Source of the DNA: Acidobacteriota bacterium
GTDB taxonomy: Bacteria; Acidobacteriota; Terriglobia; Acidiferrales; UBA7541
Direction of reading: 5' to 3'
Length of the DNA stretch: 64,000 bases
Assembly: GCA_003225295.1 (NCBI GenBank)
Contig: QHYZ01000049.1
Location: 1-64,000, forward strand
The notes below the pieces were generated by a model. The model saw only the letters and a list, made by a program, of their open reading frames with translations, was not told where the DNA came from and did not search any database. Below, piece after piece: positions 52,340-61,762 of the stretch. Position 1 is the stretch's first letter; the number at the start of each line of letters is the position of its first letter. Both the position numbers and the translations under genes were made by a program.

Positions 52340-53350
52340 TCACTTCCACGGCAGGGAAGAAACGTCCAGGTTCCCGCCGGAGAAGATCACACCGAGCTTC
52401 GGAGTGCCCCCGTCGGTACGTTTCGGCAGATTCAACGACGCTACCACGCCGGGCTTTAGCAGCGGAGCAATCGCCACAGCGCTCGATGGCTCAATGACGA
52501 TTTTCATGCGCTCCCAGACCAGCCGCGCCGCCGAGATGATCTCCTCCTCGCTGACCAGGAGGATACTTTCCACATGACGCCGCAGGATCGCAAACGTGCG
52601 CGGCGCCAACGATGCCCGCAACCCGTCAGCAATCGTGTCGCTCGACTCCAGCGATTGCAGCGTCCCGCTGGTCAGGGACCGGTAGGCGTCATCCGCACGT
52701 TCCGGTTCGCAGCCAACTACCCGCACATCTGCGCGAATTCCCTTGGCTCCGAGACACGTGCCGCTGAGCAGTCCGCCGCCGCTGACTGGTGCAAACACCG
52801 CATCCAGGTCGCCTACCTCCTCCAGCAGCTCCTTCGCCGCCGTGGCCTGGCCCGCGATGATGCGGTCGTCGTCGTAAGGATGCACCAGGTGCGCCCCTGT
52901 TTCTGCCTGGACTCGGTCGCAAGTTGCCTTTCGGGCCGTCACCGTTGGCTCACAGAGAACAATTTTCCCTCCGTAGCCCTCGATGGCCGCGGCTTTTACC
53001 GCAGGTGCATTTCTCGGCATGACGATCCATGCCGGGACTCCTCGCCAGGCGGCCGCGCAAGCCACAGCGGCGCCATGATTTCCGCTCGATTGTGTGACCA
53101 TCCCCCGCGCCACCTCTTGTTCTGTCAGGGAAAGGATCGCATTGGACGCCCCGCGAATCTTGAACGAGCCGGTCTTCTGCAGATTTTCGCACTTGAAGAA
53201 GAGCCGCGCCCCGGCGATGGCGTTCAGGGATGCGGATGTTAGGACCGGCGTGCGGTGGATCCTGGGGGCGATGCGCGCATGCGCCGCTAAGATGGCCTCC
53301 CATGTGGGGGGTTGGTATTGGATGGATTCGGTGGATGAAACGGTTTTCAT
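52340..53350 (-). CDS. Serine/threonine dehydratase family (PLP fold type II)
   Basis: This 336-residue PLP enzyme has the lysine motif KTGSFKIRGA near residue 60, SSGNHGAAVACAA near 88, and the phosphate-binding glycine loop PVSGGGLLSGTCLG near 188, with IFSGGNLD near the end. The length is that of the single-domain catabolic type, without the C-terminal ACT regulatory domain of biosynthetic IlvA. It could be a threonine or serine dehydratase or a serine racemase; sequence alone does not settle this. It stands alone. Confidence 0.88.
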   Translation of the reverse strand: MKTVSSTESIQYQPPTWEAILAAHARIAPRIHRTPVLTSASLNAIAGARLFFKCENLQKTGSFKIRGASNAILSLTEQEVARGMVTQSSGNHGAAVACAAAWRGVPAWIVMPRNAPAVKAAAIEGYGGKIVLCEPTVTARKATCDRVQAETGAHLVHPYDDDRIIAGQATAAKELLEEVGDLDAVFAPVSGGGLLSGTCLGAKGIRADVRVVGCEPERADDAYRSLTSGTLQSLESSDTIADGLRASLAPRTFAILRRHVESILLVSEEEIISAARLVWERMKIVIEPSSAVAIAPLLKPGVVASLNLPKRTDGGTPKLGVIFSGGNLDVSSLPWK

Positions 53351-53627
53351 AATCGTCGTCTTGGGTTCGAGTTGCTTGTTAGTTCTTCACTCTTAGCGCC
53401 TTATAATGCGTTGTCCGCCGCTGTTAAAGAGGCATTATGGTATGCCAATGATGGCTCCGTTGGCTCGGATGATCCAAGCCGCCGGAAGCTCATGTGGGTA
53501 CCGGTACTTCTTGGCCATGCCACCTTTGATACTTGACCGCCCGGCTGACTCTGTTACGCTGGAAGTCCCCTCCATCACGCTCGCGACAGTACGCGCGCCA
53601 GACTTTTCCTCGCGCGCAAGGGACAAG

Positions 53628-53975
53628 ATGAAAGTAGCAGAACGCCGACAACTGACCCGCCTCAACCTACGGACACCCCTGCGCTTCCGTGCCCTTGGGG
53701 TTGCTTCGGACAAGATCGAGCATTTTACGGAAGCTCTGAATGTCTCGCGCGGAGGCTTCTTCTTCGCCTCCTCGGCTCCACTGCAGGTTGGTATGCCCAT
53801 CGAAGCGACGCTGCGCATGCCCGCGGAAGTGACCGGGAATTCGGCCCAGGAGATGCGCTGCACCGCGCGCGTCGTGCATGTCCGCAACGAGCCTTACGGA
53901 GACGGCCGCATCGGCTTCGGCGTCGAAATCGAGAAGTTCCAAGCCATCCCTCCCCAAGACCGCTGGTTGAGCTGA
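53628..53975 (+). CDS. PilZ domain protein
   Basis: The 115-residue protein is a single PilZ domain. Both c-di-GMP contact motifs are present: ERRQLTRLNLRTPLRF at the N-terminus (RxxxR) and LNVSRGGFFF (the NxSxxG form of DxSxxG). It closes with GRIGFGVEIEKF. The ATG at 53628 follows AGGGACAAG, and earlier starts would add residues unrelated to PilZ. It probably binds cyclic di-GMP and signals to an unknown partner. Confidence 0.88.
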   Translation: MKVAERRQLTRLNLRTPLRFRALGVASDKIEHFTEALNVSRGGFFFASSAPLQVGMPIEATLRMPAEVTGNSAQEMRCTARVVHVRNEPYGDGRIGFGVEIEKFQAIPPQDRWLS

Positions 53976-54167: not shown

Positions 54168-56639
54168 CTAGGGTTTTGCGGCCGGAACGGTGACGATGGT
54201 TTTCGCGCTGCCGACGTTTTCGAACCGGTCGTAGGCTCGCACGGAAATTACATGTTCGCCCGGGCCAAGTCCGCTGAGGGAGATCTCGTAGCGTTCGTCG
54301 GGCGCATCGCTGATGCGGCCGGTGGGGGCTACCAGGATCCAATCGCCACCGTCGACACTGTACTGCGCGTGCTCGATGTTGCTCCCCGCATCCTGCGCGG
54401 TGAATTGGACGATTGTGAGCTTGCCGTTGGGCATCGGAGAATCCGAAATAGTCCCCATGATTTTCACTACTGGCGGAGTATTGTCCACCTCGAAGCGCTC
54501 GCTTTCGCGTTCTTTCTTGAGTGCCAAAGCGGGGGGATTTGACGGCGCGTCGCTGGCGACGATTTTCAGGTGGTAGGCTCCATCCGGCAGCGTGGTGGTG
54601 TCCCATGAATAGAATTTCTGCTCGAGGTTTTCCTTGAATAATTTCCATTCGTGTTCGTTTTCGCCGCGAAAGTAAACGGAGTAACGCATTTCGTCGTCGT
54701 TTTCGTCGTGCACGGTCCACACAACGGATTGATAACCCTTCTGCAGGGTGCCTTGCGGCGGCGGTTCGAACCGCGGCGGCGTGCTGCTCGGGGTGCCTGC
54801 CATGCCGGGAACGTTTGGCGACGGCGGCATCTTGAGCATCACCGTCGCCGGCTGGCCCGACGACATGCCCACTTGGCCTTGCGCCCGCACTCCGGGATCC
54901 TGCAATGCGATTCCGTCGATAACCGGCGCGACGTTGTGAGGGAGATACGCCAGGCTAACCCAATCAATACCATCTCCTGGGCGTCCGTCGTGGATGACCG
55001 CCTTCCACTGAACGAACCGCGCCGACGGCGCTTCGACGGCACTGCCCGATTTCGCGTAGGGGCCGTACCAGCCGGACCACTCGCCGCCGGGGTCCTCCGT
55101 GTTTCCCGAGCGTACAAAAAACTCCAGGCGTGGTTCATTCGAATTGGCCGAAGACTTGGCGGGGGCAGCCGGCGGAGGACTCCACCACTCCAGGCGGCCC
55201 CACTGCGAGAAAAGTTGCGCGTCGAAGGAGCGGGACTCGAACGTGCCTGCGGCTTCGTATTCGGGGCCGACCGAAAAGACTTTTCCAGGATTTGAGGTGC
55301 ACAGGAAAACTCTGCCGGAGGAATTGTGGGCGATGCCCGTGATTTGCGCGGAGCCGGACTTGGCGAGATGCGCAAAAACGCCGTGACCATCGACGGCGAG
55401 GAGAGCCCCGCTGTTGCCGGTCCCCGCCAGGAGGCGGCCATCGGAAGCAAGTCCAAGGGCGTAGACCACGTCTTCGCGCGAAGACCAAAGCTCTTCCGGG
55501 GCGCCATCGGCGCTGATGCGGTAGATGCTGCTGGAGAGCAGAGCAGGAAACGGAACGAAAGGTTGCTGCGGGGGAGTTTGGCCGGGACCCGCTGGGCCGC
55601 CGGTCATAACGGTTGGCGCGCCTTGTGGGTTGGAGATGACGGGGCTCGGAGCTTGCCCAACGCGTTGCTTCTCACCGATGGCGGAGAGGTAGATGGTGCC
55701 GTCGGGAGCCACAGCGAGGGAAGTGACTTCGCGCTTGGAAGTTTCATAGAGCACGAAGCCTTCCGCTTTCGCCATGGCTGCATTCTTGGAGTCTTTGGCC
55801 GATGCCTTCGACGAACTCCGCGAGATGCGAAGGATGCGGCCGCTGGGTTCGGTGCCGGCGATGAGATTTCCTTTTGCGTCAAAAGCCAGAACGCGAATGT
55901 GCGCTTCGTCGCTGGAGTAGAAAAGCTCGCCTTTGCCGTCGGGCCCGACGGCGAAGACCTGTCCTTTGTCACCGGTGGCGACATAAAGAGTTCCGTCGGG
56001 CGAAAAAGCGAGGTCCCAGATGTATTTCGTTTTGGGTTCGAAGAAAACGGATTTCTCGCCGGAAGTAGAGACCCGGTAAACCTTGCCGTCGGGAGAAGTG
56101 CCGACATAGAGAGCGCCTTTGGAGTCAAAGGCGATGGCTTGCGCGGAGAGATCAGAGGAATCGAAAACGATGGCAGGTTTGCCGTTCGAATCGAAGCGAA
56201 ATACTTTCGCAGGCGAACCGCCGGCAGCGTAGAGCATGCCCTGAGGATCGAGTCGTACGGACCAAAGATAGGAAGCATCCGCGTCGGCAAGCAAAGTGAC
56301 TTTGGGCGCGAGTTCGAGGCGGCCGTCGCTGCGCACCGCCACGCCGTGCGCGGTGCCTTTGAGAAATTCTTCGTAATTGGACTGGCGCCAGCGACGGGTG
56401 TGCTCGGCAAGAAGGGGTAACGAAGCGAGCAAGCAAAAAAGCAAGGAAAAAGAAAAGAAACGCGTAAGCGAGCGTCGAAATTGAACGGATGAGTGATTGC
56501 GGCGTGTGGAATTGAGATTCTTCGGAGCCGCTAAGGACGGCCCCGCAGATTGACAATTGTTCCTTAATGGCTTGCTTATCAGACGTGGTTGAGACAGTTG
56601 AATTGAGCTTTTCGGCAAGCTGCTCATATTAGTGATCAC
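54168..56639 (-). CDS. Exported beta-propeller protein with Ig/FN3-like C-terminus
   Basis: The 823-residue product has a late hydrophobic export signal (FFSFSLLFCLLASLPLLA near residues 62-78). A long run of propeller blades follows to about residue 470, with repeated units such as SVRLDPQGMLYAAGGSPAKV, DLAFSPDGTLYVATGDKGQV and SLAVAPDGTIYLSAIGE, NHL- or SMP-30-like. The last 350 residues carry beta-sandwich segments (GEWSGWYGPYA, VWTVHDENDDEMRYSVYFRG, YSVDGGDWILVAP). Its GTG start overlaps the stop of the S55 peptidase gene by four bases. A scaffold or binding role for the exported peptidase is inferred. Confidence 0.82.
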   Translation of the reverse strand: MITNMSSLPKSSIQLSQPRLISKPLRNNCQSAGPSLAAPKNLNSTRRNHSSVQFRRSLTRFFSFSLLFCLLASLPLLAEHTRRWRQSNYEEFLKGTAHGVAVRSDGRLELAPKVTLLADADASYLWSVRLDPQGMLYAAGGSPAKVFRFDSNGKPAIVFDSSDLSAQAIAFDSKGALYVGTSPDGKVYRVSTSGEKSVFFEPKTKYIWDLAFSPDGTLYVATGDKGQVFAVGPDGKGELFYSSDEAHIRVLAFDAKGNLIAGTEPSGRILRISRSSSKASAKDSKNAAMAKAEGFVLYETSKREVTSLAVAPDGTIYLSAIGEKQRVGQAPSPVISNPQGAPTVMTGGPAGPGQTPPQQPFVPFPALLSSSIYRISADGAPEELWSSREDVVYALGLASDGRLLAGTGNSGALLAVDGHGVFAHLAKSGSAQITGIAHNSSGRVFLCTSNPGKVFSVGPEYEAAGTFESRSFDAQLFSQWGRLEWWSPPPAAPAKSSANSNEPRLEFFVRSGNTEDPGGEWSGWYGPYAKSGSAVEAPSARFVQWKAVIHDGRPGDGIDWVSLAYLPHNVAPVIDGIALQDPGVRAQGQVGMSSGQPATVMLKMPPSPNVPGMAGTPSSTPPRFEPPPQGTLQKGYQSVVWTVHDENDDEMRYSVYFRGENEHEWKLFKENLEQKFYSWDTTTLPDGAYHLKIVASDAPSNPPALALKKERESERFEVDNTPPVVKIMGTISDSPMPNGKLTIVQFTAQDAGSNIEHAQYSVDGGDWILVAPTGRISDAPDERYEISLSGLGPGEHVISVRAYDRFENVGSAKTIVTVPAAKP

Positions 56640-58447
56640 CGGATTTGGAGATTTAGAGAGACGACGCCGGACACCGGACCCCCGAGAGGGATGGAAGCTT
56701 CACTGACCAACGATTCCCGCAGCACCTGGACGCTGCCCGGAGTGGGACGGCCGTCGACGACGTTGATTTGCGAGAGCGGGATGTTCGGCAGTTCCTTGTC
56801 GTCCCAGAGAAGCGTGGGGGCCGGGGCGAAGAGTCCAACGTAAAGACGGTCGTTCCGGCGCTCGCGATTCAAGAGCGCGATGAGTTGATCGAGGCCGGTC
56901 GGCCCGCTGCCGGCGCCGGCAAACGCGAAGCCACGGGAAGCGCGATTCAGCAGATCGGCGTCGCTGACAAGGATGCGGAGGGTAGTGCCGCGCGCCACCT
57001 GTTCCGGGATGCGAACGGTGGTCTCTTCCACGCGCGCCGCGCCGCGATAGGGGCGCAGCAGCACGCGGACGCGAAGAGTTTCGCCGGGAGCGGCTTCCCC
57101 TTTTTCGAGCCATGCGCTTTCAATGACGAATGATTTTCGGCCCGGAACGCTTTCGACTCGGAGGGTGATACCGTCCACCTTGGCAGGTTCGAAAGTATTG
57201 ACGAAAAGGCGTGTAAAAATATTTTGGACCGTCAGAGCGATGGGCATGCCATCGGGAGAAAGAGAATCGCCCGGAGCGAAAGTGTTTTCGATTCTAACCG
57301 GCGCATGACCTAGCAGGCGAATCTCGCCGGAAAGATGCAACGTGGTGCCCTCACCATATAGAGAATTTTGTGTCAGACCACTGAAGGTGGTGATAGCAAC
57401 CAGGAGCGGCGTAAGCTTTGGGTGATTGACCAGTTCGAAGTGCAGGGTCTTCTGCTTCGCGGGCTCGGCGCCAGAAACCGAGAGGGTCAAATCCAGCGGA
57501 ACCATCGCAGGAGGCGCGCCTAGTTTGCCGGTGACGGCCGTGAGATGGTCGCCGGTGATCGTGCCGATGGCGCCGCCCACGTTGACGATCTTGGTGGAAG
57601 CGAGATTGGAAGACAGCGTGGTGACGACGCGGCTGCGCGCCATGGGCAGCTGAATGTCGCCGAGACTCATAAAAGGGTGGCCACAGAGATAAACACGGTC
57701 GGCCCGCACTGCTGTGACCGTGCAGGCGGAGTTGATGGAGGCATCGCCCTGAACAAGAACCATCCCGGCCATGTCGCCGGCAACGAGACGCGCATCATCG
57801 GCGCGAGGCGAAGCCGTTCCTCCTTGCGCTGCGACGAAGCCATAGCCTTGTAACTGACTAGCGAATTGCTGCAGCGCGGCCGGCTGGAAGCCGGAGAAAA
57901 CAAGGGGCGTTTCGATCGGCTCGAGTGCGGAGCCAGAAGGCAGCGCAGTCCGCGTGGAAGTGTCACTGGGAGGCCCGAGCTGCCGCGGGGCGGCCTGCGC
58001 CGCAGGAGGCTGGGAGGGCGGGTTCAGTACGTCCTGAATGGGTGTGACGCCGGCGATGGGCTCTTTGCTGAAGATGCCCAGTTTCAGTGAAAGGGCACCA
58101 GCGAGTTTGCCTTCGAGATAGACGGGGCTGCCGCTCATCCCCGCGACCACACCGGTGTGCTCGACCTTCGGCCCCTTCAACTGCACGAGGATAATGGATT
58201 GTTTGGGGCCTAGAAAATTATCCAGCACGCCGATGACTTCAAGGTCAAACTTTTCCACTTGATCGCCGGCAAAGATCGTGTACGCGTACCCTTCCATGCC
58301 GGCGCGAACCTGGCTGAGAGGAAGGATTTCATTCGATTCTTGAGCGACGGCGACTCCAGGTCCCCGCCAAAGCGCGGCCGTACACGCTAAGAAGGCGAAG
58401 AACAAGAAGCAGCGAGAGTTCGATAGTTCAAAACGGACCGTGAGCAT
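56636..58447 (-). CDS. SpoIVB-like (S55) peptidase with halves in swapped order
   Basis: This 603-residue protein has a signal peptide (LFFAFLACTAALW, cut near 35). The first block, FDLEVIGVLDN to VAGMSGSPVYLEGKLAGAL, matches the serine half of SpoIVB, with Ser105 in AGMSGSPVY. The second block, VYLCGHPFMSLGDIQL near 252-267 (His257) to GGAIGTITGD, matches the histidine half. In Bacillus SpoIVB, histidine precedes serine (His236, Ser378), so the order here is reversed. About 300 further residues of unknown type follow. The stop overlaps the start of the beta-propeller gene (ATGA overlap). Its substrate is unknown. Confidence 0.85.
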   Translation of the reverse strand: MLTVRFELSNSRCFLFFAFLACTAALWRGPGVAVAQESNEILPLSQVRAGMEGYAYTIFAGDQVEKFDLEVIGVLDNFLGPKQSIILVQLKGPKVEHTGVVAGMSGSPVYLEGKLAGALSLKLGIFSKEPIAGVTPIQDVLNPPSQPPAAQAAPRQLGPPSDTSTRTALPSGSALEPIETPLVFSGFQPAALQQFASQLQGYGFVAAQGGTASPRADDARLVAGDMAGMVLVQGDASINSACTVTAVRADRVYLCGHPFMSLGDIQLPMARSRVVTTLSSNLASTKIVNVGGAIGTITGDHLTAVTGKLGAPPAMVPLDLTLSVSGAEPAKQKTLHFELVNHPKLTPLLVAITTFSGLTQNSLYGEGTTLHLSGEIRLLGHAPVRIENTFAPGDSLSPDGMPIALTVQNIFTRLFVNTFEPAKVDGITLRVESVPGRKSFVIESAWLEKGEAAPGETLRVRVLLRPYRGAARVEETTVRIPEQVARGTTLRILVSDADLLNRASRGFAFAGAGSGPTGLDQLIALLNRERRNDRLYVGLFAPAPTLLWDDKELPNIPLSQINVVDGRPTPGSVQVLRESLVSEASIPLGGPVSGVVSLNLQIR

Positions 58448-59072: not shown

Positions 59073-60263
59073 ATGGCGGAAAGCATTCCTCTTGGACAGC
59101 CTTTACAACCGCGGCTGGGCGAGCAGGCTTACGGCCGCGCGGACGCCATCCCCTGGACGATCTGGTGCATGTTCGCCGGAATCGCTTGCGGCCTGGTCGG
59201 GGGGCAGTGGGACATTTCCTGGCATATGTCGATCGGCCGCGACACGTTCTGGACACCGGCGCACATTCTGATCCAACTGACGGGAGTGCTGGTGGGCATG
59301 GCGTGCGGGTACATGATCCTGACAGCGACGTTCGGCGGAGACACCGCCATACAGAGCAGGTCGGTGAAGATTTGGGGATTCCGCGGGCCACTGGGAGCGT
59401 TTATCGCGACGTGGGGCTGCATGGCGATGCTGACCTCCGCGCCGTTCGATAACTGGTGGCACAACGCGTACGGGCTGGACGTGAAGATTGTGAGTCCGCC
59501 GCACACGCTGCTCTCGCTGGGATCGTTTGCCATCAAGATTGGGACGCTCGCGTTGATGGCGGGTTTGATGAACCGCTCGGAAGAAAAAGTGCGGCGGAAG
59601 CTCATGCGGCTTTCCGTGTTCGTGGGAGCGGTTTGCGTTTCGCAACTCGGGACCATCCTTACCATATCGACTTGGCCCGTGAACATGCACGCCGCGAAAT
59701 GTTACCTGGCGGTGGCCATCGCGATTCCTCCGGCGCTAGTGGGTACAGCGTGGGGTTTGGGGCGGCGCTGGGCGTGCACCCTGGTAGCGGGAACGTACAC
59801 GTTGATTCTGCTGGCATTTGAGTGGATTTTGCCGTTGATCCCGGCGGAACCGAAGCTCGGACCGGTCTATCAGCACATAACGCACCTGATACCGCTGCGA
59901 TTCCCGCTGCTCTTCATTGTGCCTGCGATCATGCTGGATCTGCTGTGGAACAAAACCAAGGGGTGGGGAAGATGGGAGTTGGCTGCCGTCTCCGGGCCGG
60001 TGTTCGTGTTGAGCTTTCTCGCCGTGCAATGGCCGTTTGCAAACTTTTTGATGTCCCCGTCCGCACGGAACTGGGTATTCGGAATGGCGTACTTTGCTTA
60101 CTTCGATCCAGCAGGCTTTCTCTACGATCCTTACAAGTTCCAAATTGCAGAGAATACGCGCGGCGAGTTCTGGACCACCATGGCTGCAGCGCTGTTGGTC
60201 TCCATCGTTAGCGCGCGGCTGGGACTGGCGTGGGGAGACTGGATGCGGCGGCTGCGTCGATGA
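59073..60263 (+). CDS. Multi-helix membrane protein with membrane histidines
   Basis: This 396-residue protein has about ten hydrophobic segments. Histidines lie at or near the membrane: WDISWHMSIGRDTFWTPAHIL near residues 47-67 (two parts), DNWWHNAYG near 130, SPPHTLLSLG near 147, WPVNMHAAKC near 205 and YQHITHLIPLR near 268. Such repeated membrane histidines may bind heme, copper or quinone, but I recognise no family. GAGAGGAG lies just upstream of the ATG at 59073. Its stop overlaps the next start (ATGA), so it acts with that gene. Confidence 0.72.
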   Translation: MAESIPLGQPLQPRLGEQAYGRADAIPWTIWCMFAGIACGLVGGQWDISWHMSIGRDTFWTPAHILIQLTGVLVGMACGYMILTATFGGDTAIQSRSVKIWGFRGPLGAFIATWGCMAMLTSAPFDNWWHNAYGLDVKIVSPPHTLLSLGSFAIKIGTLALMAGLMNRSEEKVRRKLMRLSVFVGAVCVSQLGTILTISTWPVNMHAAKCYLAVAIAIPPALVGTAWGLGRRWACTLVAGTYTLILLAFEWILPLIPAEPKLGPVYQHITHLIPLRFPLLFIVPAIMLDLLWNKTKGWGRWELAAVSGPVFVLSFLAVQWPFANFLMSPSARNWVFGMAYFAYFDPAGFLYDPYKFQIAENTRGEFWTTMAAALLVSIVSARLGLAWGDWMRRLRR

Positions 60264-61762
60264 GAAAATTTCGATCGCGCACGCGGATTGTTCTGACCTC
60301 GGCGCTTGTGCTGGCGGTTCGATTATCACTGAGTGCGCACGTCGGCAGCCCGGACGTGTATTGCGAGGGTGACGCGGGGCCTTACCATCTTTTTGTCACG
60401 GTGCGAGTGCCGCAAGTGATCCCTGGCGTGGCGGAGATCGAGATCCGGTCGGCGACCAACGACGTGCGCGCCATCCAGATCGTGCCAATGCGGCTGAGCG
60501 GCGCGGGTTCGAACTTCCCGCCGACGCCCGATCTCACCCAACAGTCCAAAGAAGATCCGCAGTTTTTTACGGGGAGCCTCTGGCTGATGGAATCGGGTGC
60601 TCTGAAGGTGCGCGTCTCGGTGGGTGGCACCAAGGGCAAAGGCGAGCTTGCAGTGCCGGTACCTGCGGCCGCACAGCGGACGCTCAAGATGCAAAGACCG
60701 CTATGGGGATTGTTGGCGTTCCTGATGGTCTTTCTCGCCGTTGGAATGGTTTTCATCGCCGGCGCGGCAGTTCGGGAGGGGAACCTCGGTCCCGGGGAAA
60801 CGCCGGCGCCGGAGCGCGCGCGGAACGCGCGCGTGGTCATGGCCATTACCACGGTCGTCGTCGCCGGAATTCTCTATTTGGGAAGAGCGTGGTGGAGCGC
60901 GGAAGACAACAATTACCAACGCGGGGTGAATATATTTAAGCCGCCTGCGGCGGAGACAAAACTGGAAAACGGAAACCGGCTGGTGATTCGCGCCAAAGGG
61001 CAGGACGCGGAGTGGTCCAGCTACGTAAAGATGGAGAAAGTGATTCCCGACCACGGTCATTTGATGCACCTGTTCGTGATCAGCTCTCCGGGCCTGGACC
61101 GCATGTGGCATTTGCATCCGCAGCGAATCGAAGGCGGAGCCTTTGCGGAAGAACTGCCGTCGATGCCCGCGGGACGATACCAAATCTTCGCCGACGTTGT
61201 GGATAAGGACGGCTTTCCGTGGACGCTGGTTGGAAGCGTGGGGCTGGCGAAGATCAATGGACAGCCTCTGACCGGCGATGACTCAGCTTGGTCCGGCGCC
61301 AGCGGTGCCGCGCAAGCAGGAGATTCGACGGTGTCGCAGCTTGCCGACGGCGGGCGTATGGTGTGGCGGCGCGCGACGGATCCACTGAAAGCGAATCTGC
61401 CGATGAATTTCATGTTTAGTGTGGAAGACACCTTTGGCCAGCCGGCGAAAGATTTGGAGCCGTACATGGGAATGACCGGGCACGCAGAGTTTGTGAGCCT
61501 GGATCTGAGTGTGTTCGCCCACGTTCATCCAGCGGGATCGGTATCGATGGCGGCACTCGAACTGGCACGAACGGGGCTGGCGGGCGCATCGGGGGAATTA
61601 CCGCCCGGGATGCCGATGGCTATGCCAATGCCAAGTGCTCCCCTGTCTTCGGAGGTTCATTTTCCTTACGGTTTCCCGCGGCCGGGCGAGTATCGAATTT
61701 TTGTGCAGATCAAGCGCTCCGGGCGAGTGCAGACCGGGGTGTTTGACGCTCACGTGCGGTAA
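60260..61762 (+). CDS. Membrane-anchored protein with two His-rich YtkA-like domains
   Basis: The 500-residue protein begins with a signal (VLTSALVLAVRLSLSAHVG), then a beta domain to about 135. Two membrane helices follow near 152-172 and 190-212. The outer part carries two related modules: one with PDHGHLMHLFV and MWHLHPQRI, ending YQIFADVVDKDGFPW, and a second with MGMTGHAEFVSL and VFAHVHPAGS, ending YRIFVQIKRSGRVQ. These HxH patterns resemble YtkA/FixH-like or copper-related periplasmic domains. The ATG at 60260 overlaps the previous stop by ATGA. A metal-binding or metal-delivery role is inferred. Confidence 0.72.
   Translation: MRKFRSRTRIVLTSALVLAVRLSLSAHVGSPDVYCEGDAGPYHLFVTVRVPQVIPGVAEIEIRSATNDVRAIQIVPMRLSGAGSNFPPTPDLTQQSKEDPQFFTGSLWLMESGALKVRVSVGGTKGKGELAVPVPAAAQRTLKMQRPLWGLLAFLMVFLAVGMVFIAGAAVREGNLGPGETPAPERARNARVVMAITTVVVAGILYLGRAWWSAEDNNYQRGVNIFKPPAAETKLENGNRLVIRAKGQDAEWSSYVKMEKVIPDHGHLMHLFVISSPGLDRMWHLHPQRIEGGAFAEELPSMPAGRYQIFADVVDKDGFPWTLVGSVGLAKINGQPLTGDDSAWSGASGAAQAGDSTVSQLADGGRMVWRRATDPLKANLPMNFMFSVEDTFGQPAKDLEPYMGMTGHAEFVSLDLSVFAHVHPAGSVSMAALELARTGLAGASGELPPGMPMAMPMPSAPLSSEVHFPYGFPRPGEYRIFVQIKRSGRVQTGVFDAHVR

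Follow-up and report, generated by a model that had tools for sequence, protein, structure and literature searches.

A stretch of 64,000 nucleotides from an Acidobacteriota bacterium (assembly GCA_003225295.1, contig QHYZ01000049.1, positions 1 to 64,000; referred to as the window) contains two adjoining genes on the reverse strand that recur together across the phylum Acidobacteriota. The upstream gene is predicted to encode a serine protease related to SpoIVB (MEROPS family S55), and the downstream gene encodes a beta-propeller protein. The best explanation of the pair, and in our judgement a rather probable one, is that the protease is an exported, circularly permuted S55 relative without a PDZ domain, and that the propeller is its dedicated partner, which recruits or gates the substrates. 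The coordinates of both genes and of their parts are collected in Table 1.

The N-terminal part of the protease, which carries the predicted nucleophile Ser105, was recognized as S55-like by several methods. The Pfam profile PF05580 covered residues 41-120 with its positions 112-191 of 210 (E 1.3e-5, 25.7 bits, cut-off 25); a control SpoIVB of Sedimentibacter was covered by positions 2-209 (E 2.9e-78) and also had a PDZ domain. All 48 members of an alignment of relatives (A2) matched the profile at E up to 1. Within the phylum the cut-off was exceeded in 83 of 99 genomes and a match of any listed strength was present in 89, the listed matches all lying inside profile positions 104-202, and among 14 control genomes only Bacillus subtilis had a match. 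In searches of the PDB sequences with E up to 10, SpoIVB (9LNF) was the only match, both with the single sequence (phmmer, 1.9e-5) and with a 48-row profile (3.1e-9). An AlphaFold2 model of the whole protein had a mean predicted local distance difference test value (pLDDT) of 86 and a predicted template modelling score (pTM) of 0.83. With VIA, model residues 33-143 were superposed on residues 306-414 of 9LNF (Z 9.1, root mean square deviation (rmsd) 2.1, 106 aligned residues, 22% identity), and residues 35-143 on DegQ (3pv3, Z 10.6). This half is a clan PA-type barrel with the Ser in a GxSGxP loop and with Z values of 9-10.6 to HtrA-type proteases and SpoIVB. Sequence and fold together established that it is homologous to the C-terminal barrel of SpoIVB.

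In the open reading frame (ORF) the Ser block (AGMSGSPVY) precedes the His block (LCGHPFMS), as had been noticed in an earlier sequence-only reading of the window, and His257 comes 152 residues after Ser105. That reading had also called the order opposite to that of SpoIVB, which was verified: in chain 9LNF residue 140 is the catalytic His and residue 282 is the position changed from Ser to Ala, and these are His236 and Ser378 of SpoIVB according to the accessible part of the crystal paper (PMC12502668). A full-length S55 domain in the His-then-Ser order was not found in the protease.

The His half was compared with SpoIVB using a profile of residues 176-345 and a set of four SpoIVB sequences, i.e., 9LNF and those of Sedimentibacter (L172), Monoglobus (L171), and Subdoligranulum (L170). 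With hhalign a score of 26.3 was obtained, the GH motif was aligned on the GH motif, and His257 was placed on SpoIVB His236. Column-shuffled His-half profiles had a mean score of 11.6 (standard deviation 2.0, maximum 19.0), and none of 300 reached 26.3. The alignment was reproduced by the comparison tool (P 0.0033), and HMMER yielded 7.6 bits, a value that was attained by 3 of 5000 shuffles (4244 of the 5000 gave a score). When it was modelled alone, the His half was all-beta with a pLDDT of 91.3, and in a Foldseek search 9LNF was the first match (probability 0.97).

Several results weigh against this assignment. The hhalign probability of the His-half match was just 10-22%, though P was about 0.001-0.003, and 9LNF was absent from the 11 matches of a His-half profile search of the PDB sequences (best E 0.46). 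The first rank of 9LNF in Foldseek was accompanied by an E-value of 0.11 and an rmsd of 17 over 138 columns. VIA matched the His half mostly to other chymotrypsin-like proteases, mostly via their C-terminal barrels, with Z values up to 6.7, a range which that tool calls common, and 9LNF was not among the 50 rows. For the whole model Foldseek gave no match under E 0.001, and 9LNF was not among the 50 listed rows. Because the fold comparison with 9LNF is weak, homology of the His half to the N-terminal half of the SpoIVB catalytic domain rests mainly on sequence, and on that footing it appears well supported. Comparison of a predicted structure with SpoIVB yielded a divided result, with a clear superposition of the Ser half and a weak match of the His half, while the circular permutation that had been suspected gained support, mainly at the sequence level, from the matches of both halves to SpoIVB in swapped order.

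The same results bear on two other arrangements. The Ser half alone might be related to S55 peptidases, the remainder being an unrelated all-beta domain in which the conserved His has another role. The Pfam and PDB sequence searches, which pick up only the Ser half, and the weak fold match of the His half would fit this, but the sole invariant His of the alignment falls on His236 within a common GT-T...GH stretch with a score that no shuffled profile reached, and we regard this arrangement as quite improbable. Alternatively, the barrels could be swapped between subunits, so that the Ser-barrel and the His-barrel of different chains of a domain-swapped oligomer form an active site in trans. The sequence evidence would be identical to that for a permutation, and the 67-residue linker, parts of which were modelled with low confidence (pLDDT under 50 at residues 159-166), could reach either way. 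A single chain was modelled with the pTM given above, however, and an active site in trans seems improbable.

The conservation of single residues was analyzed in the 48 aligned members and in a larger set of 158 loci (L003-L160), which represent 148 distinct proteins because 10 proteins had been fetched twice from two collections. Ser105, Ser107, Asp235, Thr243, and His257 were invariant in all 48 members, and Asp300 was present in 47. Among the distinct proteins Asp235 and His257 were found in 148 of 148, Ser105 in 147 of 147 (one row was short of this column), and Asp300 in 147 of 148. Since both predicted catalytic residues are invariant, the Ser and His blocks are not a product of chance. 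As the third residue of S55 catalysis, a 2025 SpoIVB crystal paper doubts Asp363 and suggests Thr393 instead, as far as its accessible part goes (PMC12502668). By the alignment of the 48-row profile with 9LNF, the Asp363 position, which is itself invariant across the four SpoIVB sequences, corresponds to Gly92 of the window protein and is Gly in 46 of the 48 members; the Thr393 position corresponds to Ser120 and is Ser in 27 and Ala in 21. In the four SpoIVB sequences an Asp placed 23 residues ahead of the His is likewise invariant (by count, Asp213 of B. subtilis), and its correspondence to Asp235 is by spacing only, outside any scored alignment. As the only invariant acid with a visible SpoIVB counterpart, Asp235 may point to the true third residue of the family, and its conservation makes it the best candidate for a third catalytic residue.

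The replacements at the Asp363 and Thr393 positions would also be compatible with an exported pseudoprotease or structural protein, so that the pair would be an envelope scaffold without proteolysis. This is very unlikely in our view, because the Ser of GMSGSP and the His of GH are kept in every one of the 48 aligned members and in all of the distinct proteins for which the column is covered. Such full retention of catalytic residues is unusual for pseudoenzymes.

A PDZ domain hidden in the protease was considered and rejected: the window protein itself gave none at E up to 1, and just weak PDZ_2 matches were found in two of the 48 members (best E 0.0091; 15.6 bits against a cut-off of 27 near the C-terminus in L074). 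A survey of PDZ proteins lists, in the portion of its table available to us, none of the SpoIVB class for Acidobacteria (PMC6411480), in keeping with a variant that lacks the domain. The protease is apparently exported, judging from an N-terminus that resembles a signal peptide by eye. Among the best 80 loci listed, its closest relatives were in L081, an Acidobacteria metagenome-assembled genome (MAG) with an 89% identical protein, and in L085, Candidatus Acidoferrales. A second S55-like gene of the same genome was looked for and rejected, the sole other match having an E-value of 0.08 over 34 residues.

The propeller repeats of the downstream protein exceeded the curated cut-offs of Reg_prop (37.5 against 20.4, E 1.3e-9), WD40 (32.3 against 27, E 1.3e-7), and SSL_N (31.7 against 18.9, E 1.4e-7). 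At its C-terminus Big_3_3, Big_7, and an OmpL47-type domain (8.5e-8) were matched, all below cut-off. The two genes had been described as overlapping in stop and start, with a propeller of 823 residues. The GTGA motif is present, and the overlap is real only if GTG is the start; an alternative ATG lies 12 nt downstream. Among 13 loci inspected within the same family, a propeller start codon occupies the overlapping place in 11 and the ATG 12 nt further on is present in 9, so that the true start and the length are not certain. The word "fused" in the earlier description did not hold in the sense of one protein: none of the ORFs in the 158 loci matched both models, and a fusion into a single protein was thus rejected.

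The distribution of the two genes was surveyed in sampled Acidobacteriota genomes. Of 89 genomes of its own family 84 have the protease, as do 281 of the 297 sampled for the phylum, and the propeller was present in 280 of the latter. Both genes were found in 280 genomes, neither in 16, the protease alone in one, and the propeller alone in none. In the single protease-only genome (G247) 339 bases separate the protease from the contig end on its downstream side. For the 16 double-negative genomes the absence of the protease was confirmed with a profile, save for a match of 50 residues (E 0.0096) in G224, and the propeller profile had no match at E 1e-20 (candidates in G275, G337, and G286 were scored in part). 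Nine of these genomes are at least 90% complete with at most 5% contamination, and one of the nine (G305) is a single contig; shared assembly gaps, where the genes adjoin, could account for part of the seven less complete negatives. A hypergeometric calculation, which takes neither kinship nor such gaps into account, gave a probability of 1.5e-25 for all genomes and of 8e-16 when limited to the 258 better ones. The two genes are regarded as a core module of this phylum.

In a scan of genome contigs, the best 80 loci listed carried titles of Acidobacteriota groups save for one, which is titled Acidimicrobiia (L157). Its protease is 36% identical with the propeller alongside, and it is possibly a mis-labelled acidobacterial MAG. 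Plasmid or viral copies of the protease were rejected, since no plasmid match and no relative among viral contigs were found.

The linkage of the genes was determined for the 148 distinct loci. In 103 of them the best propeller match lies downstream on the same strand (six of these are partial matches under 100 bits), and in none on the other strand. Twelve loci have under 1.5 kb of downstream sequence and six exactly 1.5 kb. The remaining 27 loci have more than 1.5 kb downstream and no propeller alongside, which counts against a dedicated partner; by title they are mostly Acidobacteriaceae, Acidobacteriales, Terriglobia, Terriglobales, or Sulfotelmatobacter. For all 158 loci the same classes comprise 112, 12, 6, and 28. 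In a set of 20 loci drawn from 19 of the phylum's families, the propeller adjoins the protease in 18. Both genes are retained though apart in four genomes (G113, G184, G172, and G163), and in the latter two there is no propeller within the stretch fetched around the protease. In addition, 12 genomes with two copies were analyzed, which had been chosen on a prior sign of two copies and in several of which a pair had already been seen. All 24 protease copies have their own propeller directly downstream (a copy split over contig ends was counted once, and for G265 and G241 the split is presumed). G107 also has an additional short propeller match, with no protease next to it.

Together with the survey, this bears on a rather unlikely reading, in which the propeller is a substrate or inhibitor of the protease, or an envelope protein that has nothing in common with it beyond the operon. 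The link between the genes is purely genomic, and the unpaired loci would be in line with such a reading. On the other hand, the propeller can hardly be an unrelated neighbour, because both genes are jointly absent from 16 of 16 genomes, are jointly duplicated in the 12 picked genomes, and are both kept when apart; a substrate or an inhibitor may fit these findings. The proposal that protease and propeller act as one system was therefore strengthened by co-occurrence, co-absence, and co-duplication, the survey having answered whether the two genes co-occur across genomes.

According to the preferred explanation of a permuted protease with a propeller partner, the upstream gene would encode an exported and proteolytically active PDZ-less relative of SpoIVB. 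Its two-barrel domain would be permuted to the order Ser-barrel, linker, His-barrel, with Ser105 and His257 still meeting between the barrels. The dedicated partner would be the product of the downstream gene, an exported beta-propeller that ends in immunoglobulin-like (Ig-like) domains and may bind the protease and recruit or gate substrates in the cell envelope. The propeller would thereby do the job of the PDZ domain of SpoIVB, as a substrate receptor or an activator in its stead; a role as a scaffold or substrate receptor would be plausible. A bolder version, i.e., a phylum-wide natural permuted protease of the chymotrypsin fold with a secreted propeller subunit of its own in place of the PDZ domain and with Asp235 marking the third S55 residue, is put forward tentatively, and its chance falls a little short of even.

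The protease shares with SpoIVB the homologous Ser-barrel, the GMSGSP and GH blocks, and an invariant Asp 22-23 positions ahead of the His. It differs in the swapped barrel order, the lack of a detected PDZ domain, about 260 additional C-terminal residues, and the propeller partner, and it is not a sporulation gene according to the equivalog model TIGR02860 (spore_IV_B; 28.5 bits against a cut-off of 305.25). The HtrA-type proteases (DegP, DegQ; S1C) resemble it in the chymotrypsin-like barrel, as the DegQ superposition over the Ser half illustrates, and none of them was matched by sequence in the search of the PDB (E up to 10). Unlike in the window protease, their His precedes the Ser, and PDZ domains are C-terminal. 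A functional analogue is CtpA-LbcA of Pseudomonas aeruginosa, in which a serine protease of the envelope depends on a second, repeat-built protein as activator and likely scaffold, as described in the available sections of the report (PMC11021448). CtpA has a PDZ domain and LbcA is a TPR lipoprotein, and they are unrelated to the pair as far as tested. That the catalytic domain of a hydrolase superfamily can be permuted is seen in the circularly permuted NlpC/P60 papain-like enzymes (PMC3142127). These are cysteine enzymes of another fold. A MEROPS-based survey calls S55 peptidases widely detected in acidobacteria in the part at hand (PMC8841776). Neither the permutation nor the protease-propeller pair was found described in the accessible text of open-licence PubMed Central (PMC) papers, in agreement with the earlier impression that such a system is not known from the literature.

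Table 1. Positions of the protease-propeller gene pair and its parts in the window.
Feature	Position	Strand	Basis or remark
S55-like serine protease gene, Ser-barrel before His-barrel	56636..58447	-	ORF, 603 aa; PF05580 match
Likely signal peptide of protease, residues 1-35, cleavage AVA/Q	58343..58447	-	Hydrophobic run, small-x-small motif by eye
Ser-barrel, residues 35-143, equivalent to C-terminal barrel of SpoIVB	58019..58345	-	VIA, phmmer, profile
Ser105 codon, predicted nucleophile (GMSGSP)	58133..58135	-	Invariant 48/48; aligned with SpoIVB Ser378
Linker, residues 144-210, variable stretch and short conserved segment; place of PDZ after permutation	57818..58018	-	A2 alignment
His-barrel, residues 211-344, equivalent to N-terminal half of SpoIVB catalytic domain	57416..57817	-	hhalign; model; Foldseek
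Asp235 codon, acid 22 residues before His, candidate third catalytic residue	57743..57745	-	Invariant 48/48
His257 codon, predicted general base	57677..57679	-	Invariant 48/48; aligned with SpoIVB His236
Protease C-terminal region, residues 345-603	56639..57415	-	Without Pfam match in the window protein
GTGA, protease stop over possible propeller start	56636..56639	-	Sequence
Beta-propeller gene, up to 823 aa, N-terminal hydrophobic segment	54168..56639	-	ORF; Reg_prop, WD40, SSL_N
C-terminal Ig-like / OmpL47-like part, propeller residues 674-816	54192..54620	-	All matches below cut-off

The surroundings of the pair were also inspected. A wider operon was rejected, as no other BLAST neighbour cluster occurred in more than 4 of the 20 loci from 19 families; one of those four recurring neighbours is, in L061, an arginyl-tRNA synthetase. 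In the window the pair is adjoined by genes for a PALP-type pyridoxal-phosphate enzyme (52340-53350, reverse strand) and a PilZ-domain protein (53406-53975, forward strand), and similar neighbours were present in 6 of 100 loci. On the other side two overlapping ORFs (59073-60263 and 60230-61762, forward strand) had no Pfam match over the cut-off, the first of them being rich in hydrophobic residues. In 52 of the 100 loci the protease is immediately preceded by a divergently oriented gene, and the one scanned (L099, 2846-4114) encodes a VWA-domain protein. A downstream gene on the opposite strand was present in 14 of 100 loci, and the one scanned (L112, 11506-12399) encodes an Rce1-like CAAX-type membrane protease. 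The SpoIVB records L170-L172 are Bacillota "plasmid" records with spoIVB, and they may be mis-labelled chromosome pieces because spo0A adjoins spoIVB in two of the three.

Few bacteria are commoner in soil than the Acidobacteriota, and little is known of their envelope biology. Because the two genes are present in about 95% of the 297 sampled genomes, the module probably does something basic. If it holds true, the permuted chymotrypsin-like protease would to our knowledge be the first natural one. A comparison of both barrel orders is a direct test of the residues that S55 catalysis needs: the Asp363 and Thr393 positions are not kept here, whereas the Asp located 22-23 positions ahead of the His is. 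Taken together, the sequences suggest a two-part protein-cutting machine, seemingly unstudied, whose parts are inherited together in nearly all of the sampled members of the phylum.

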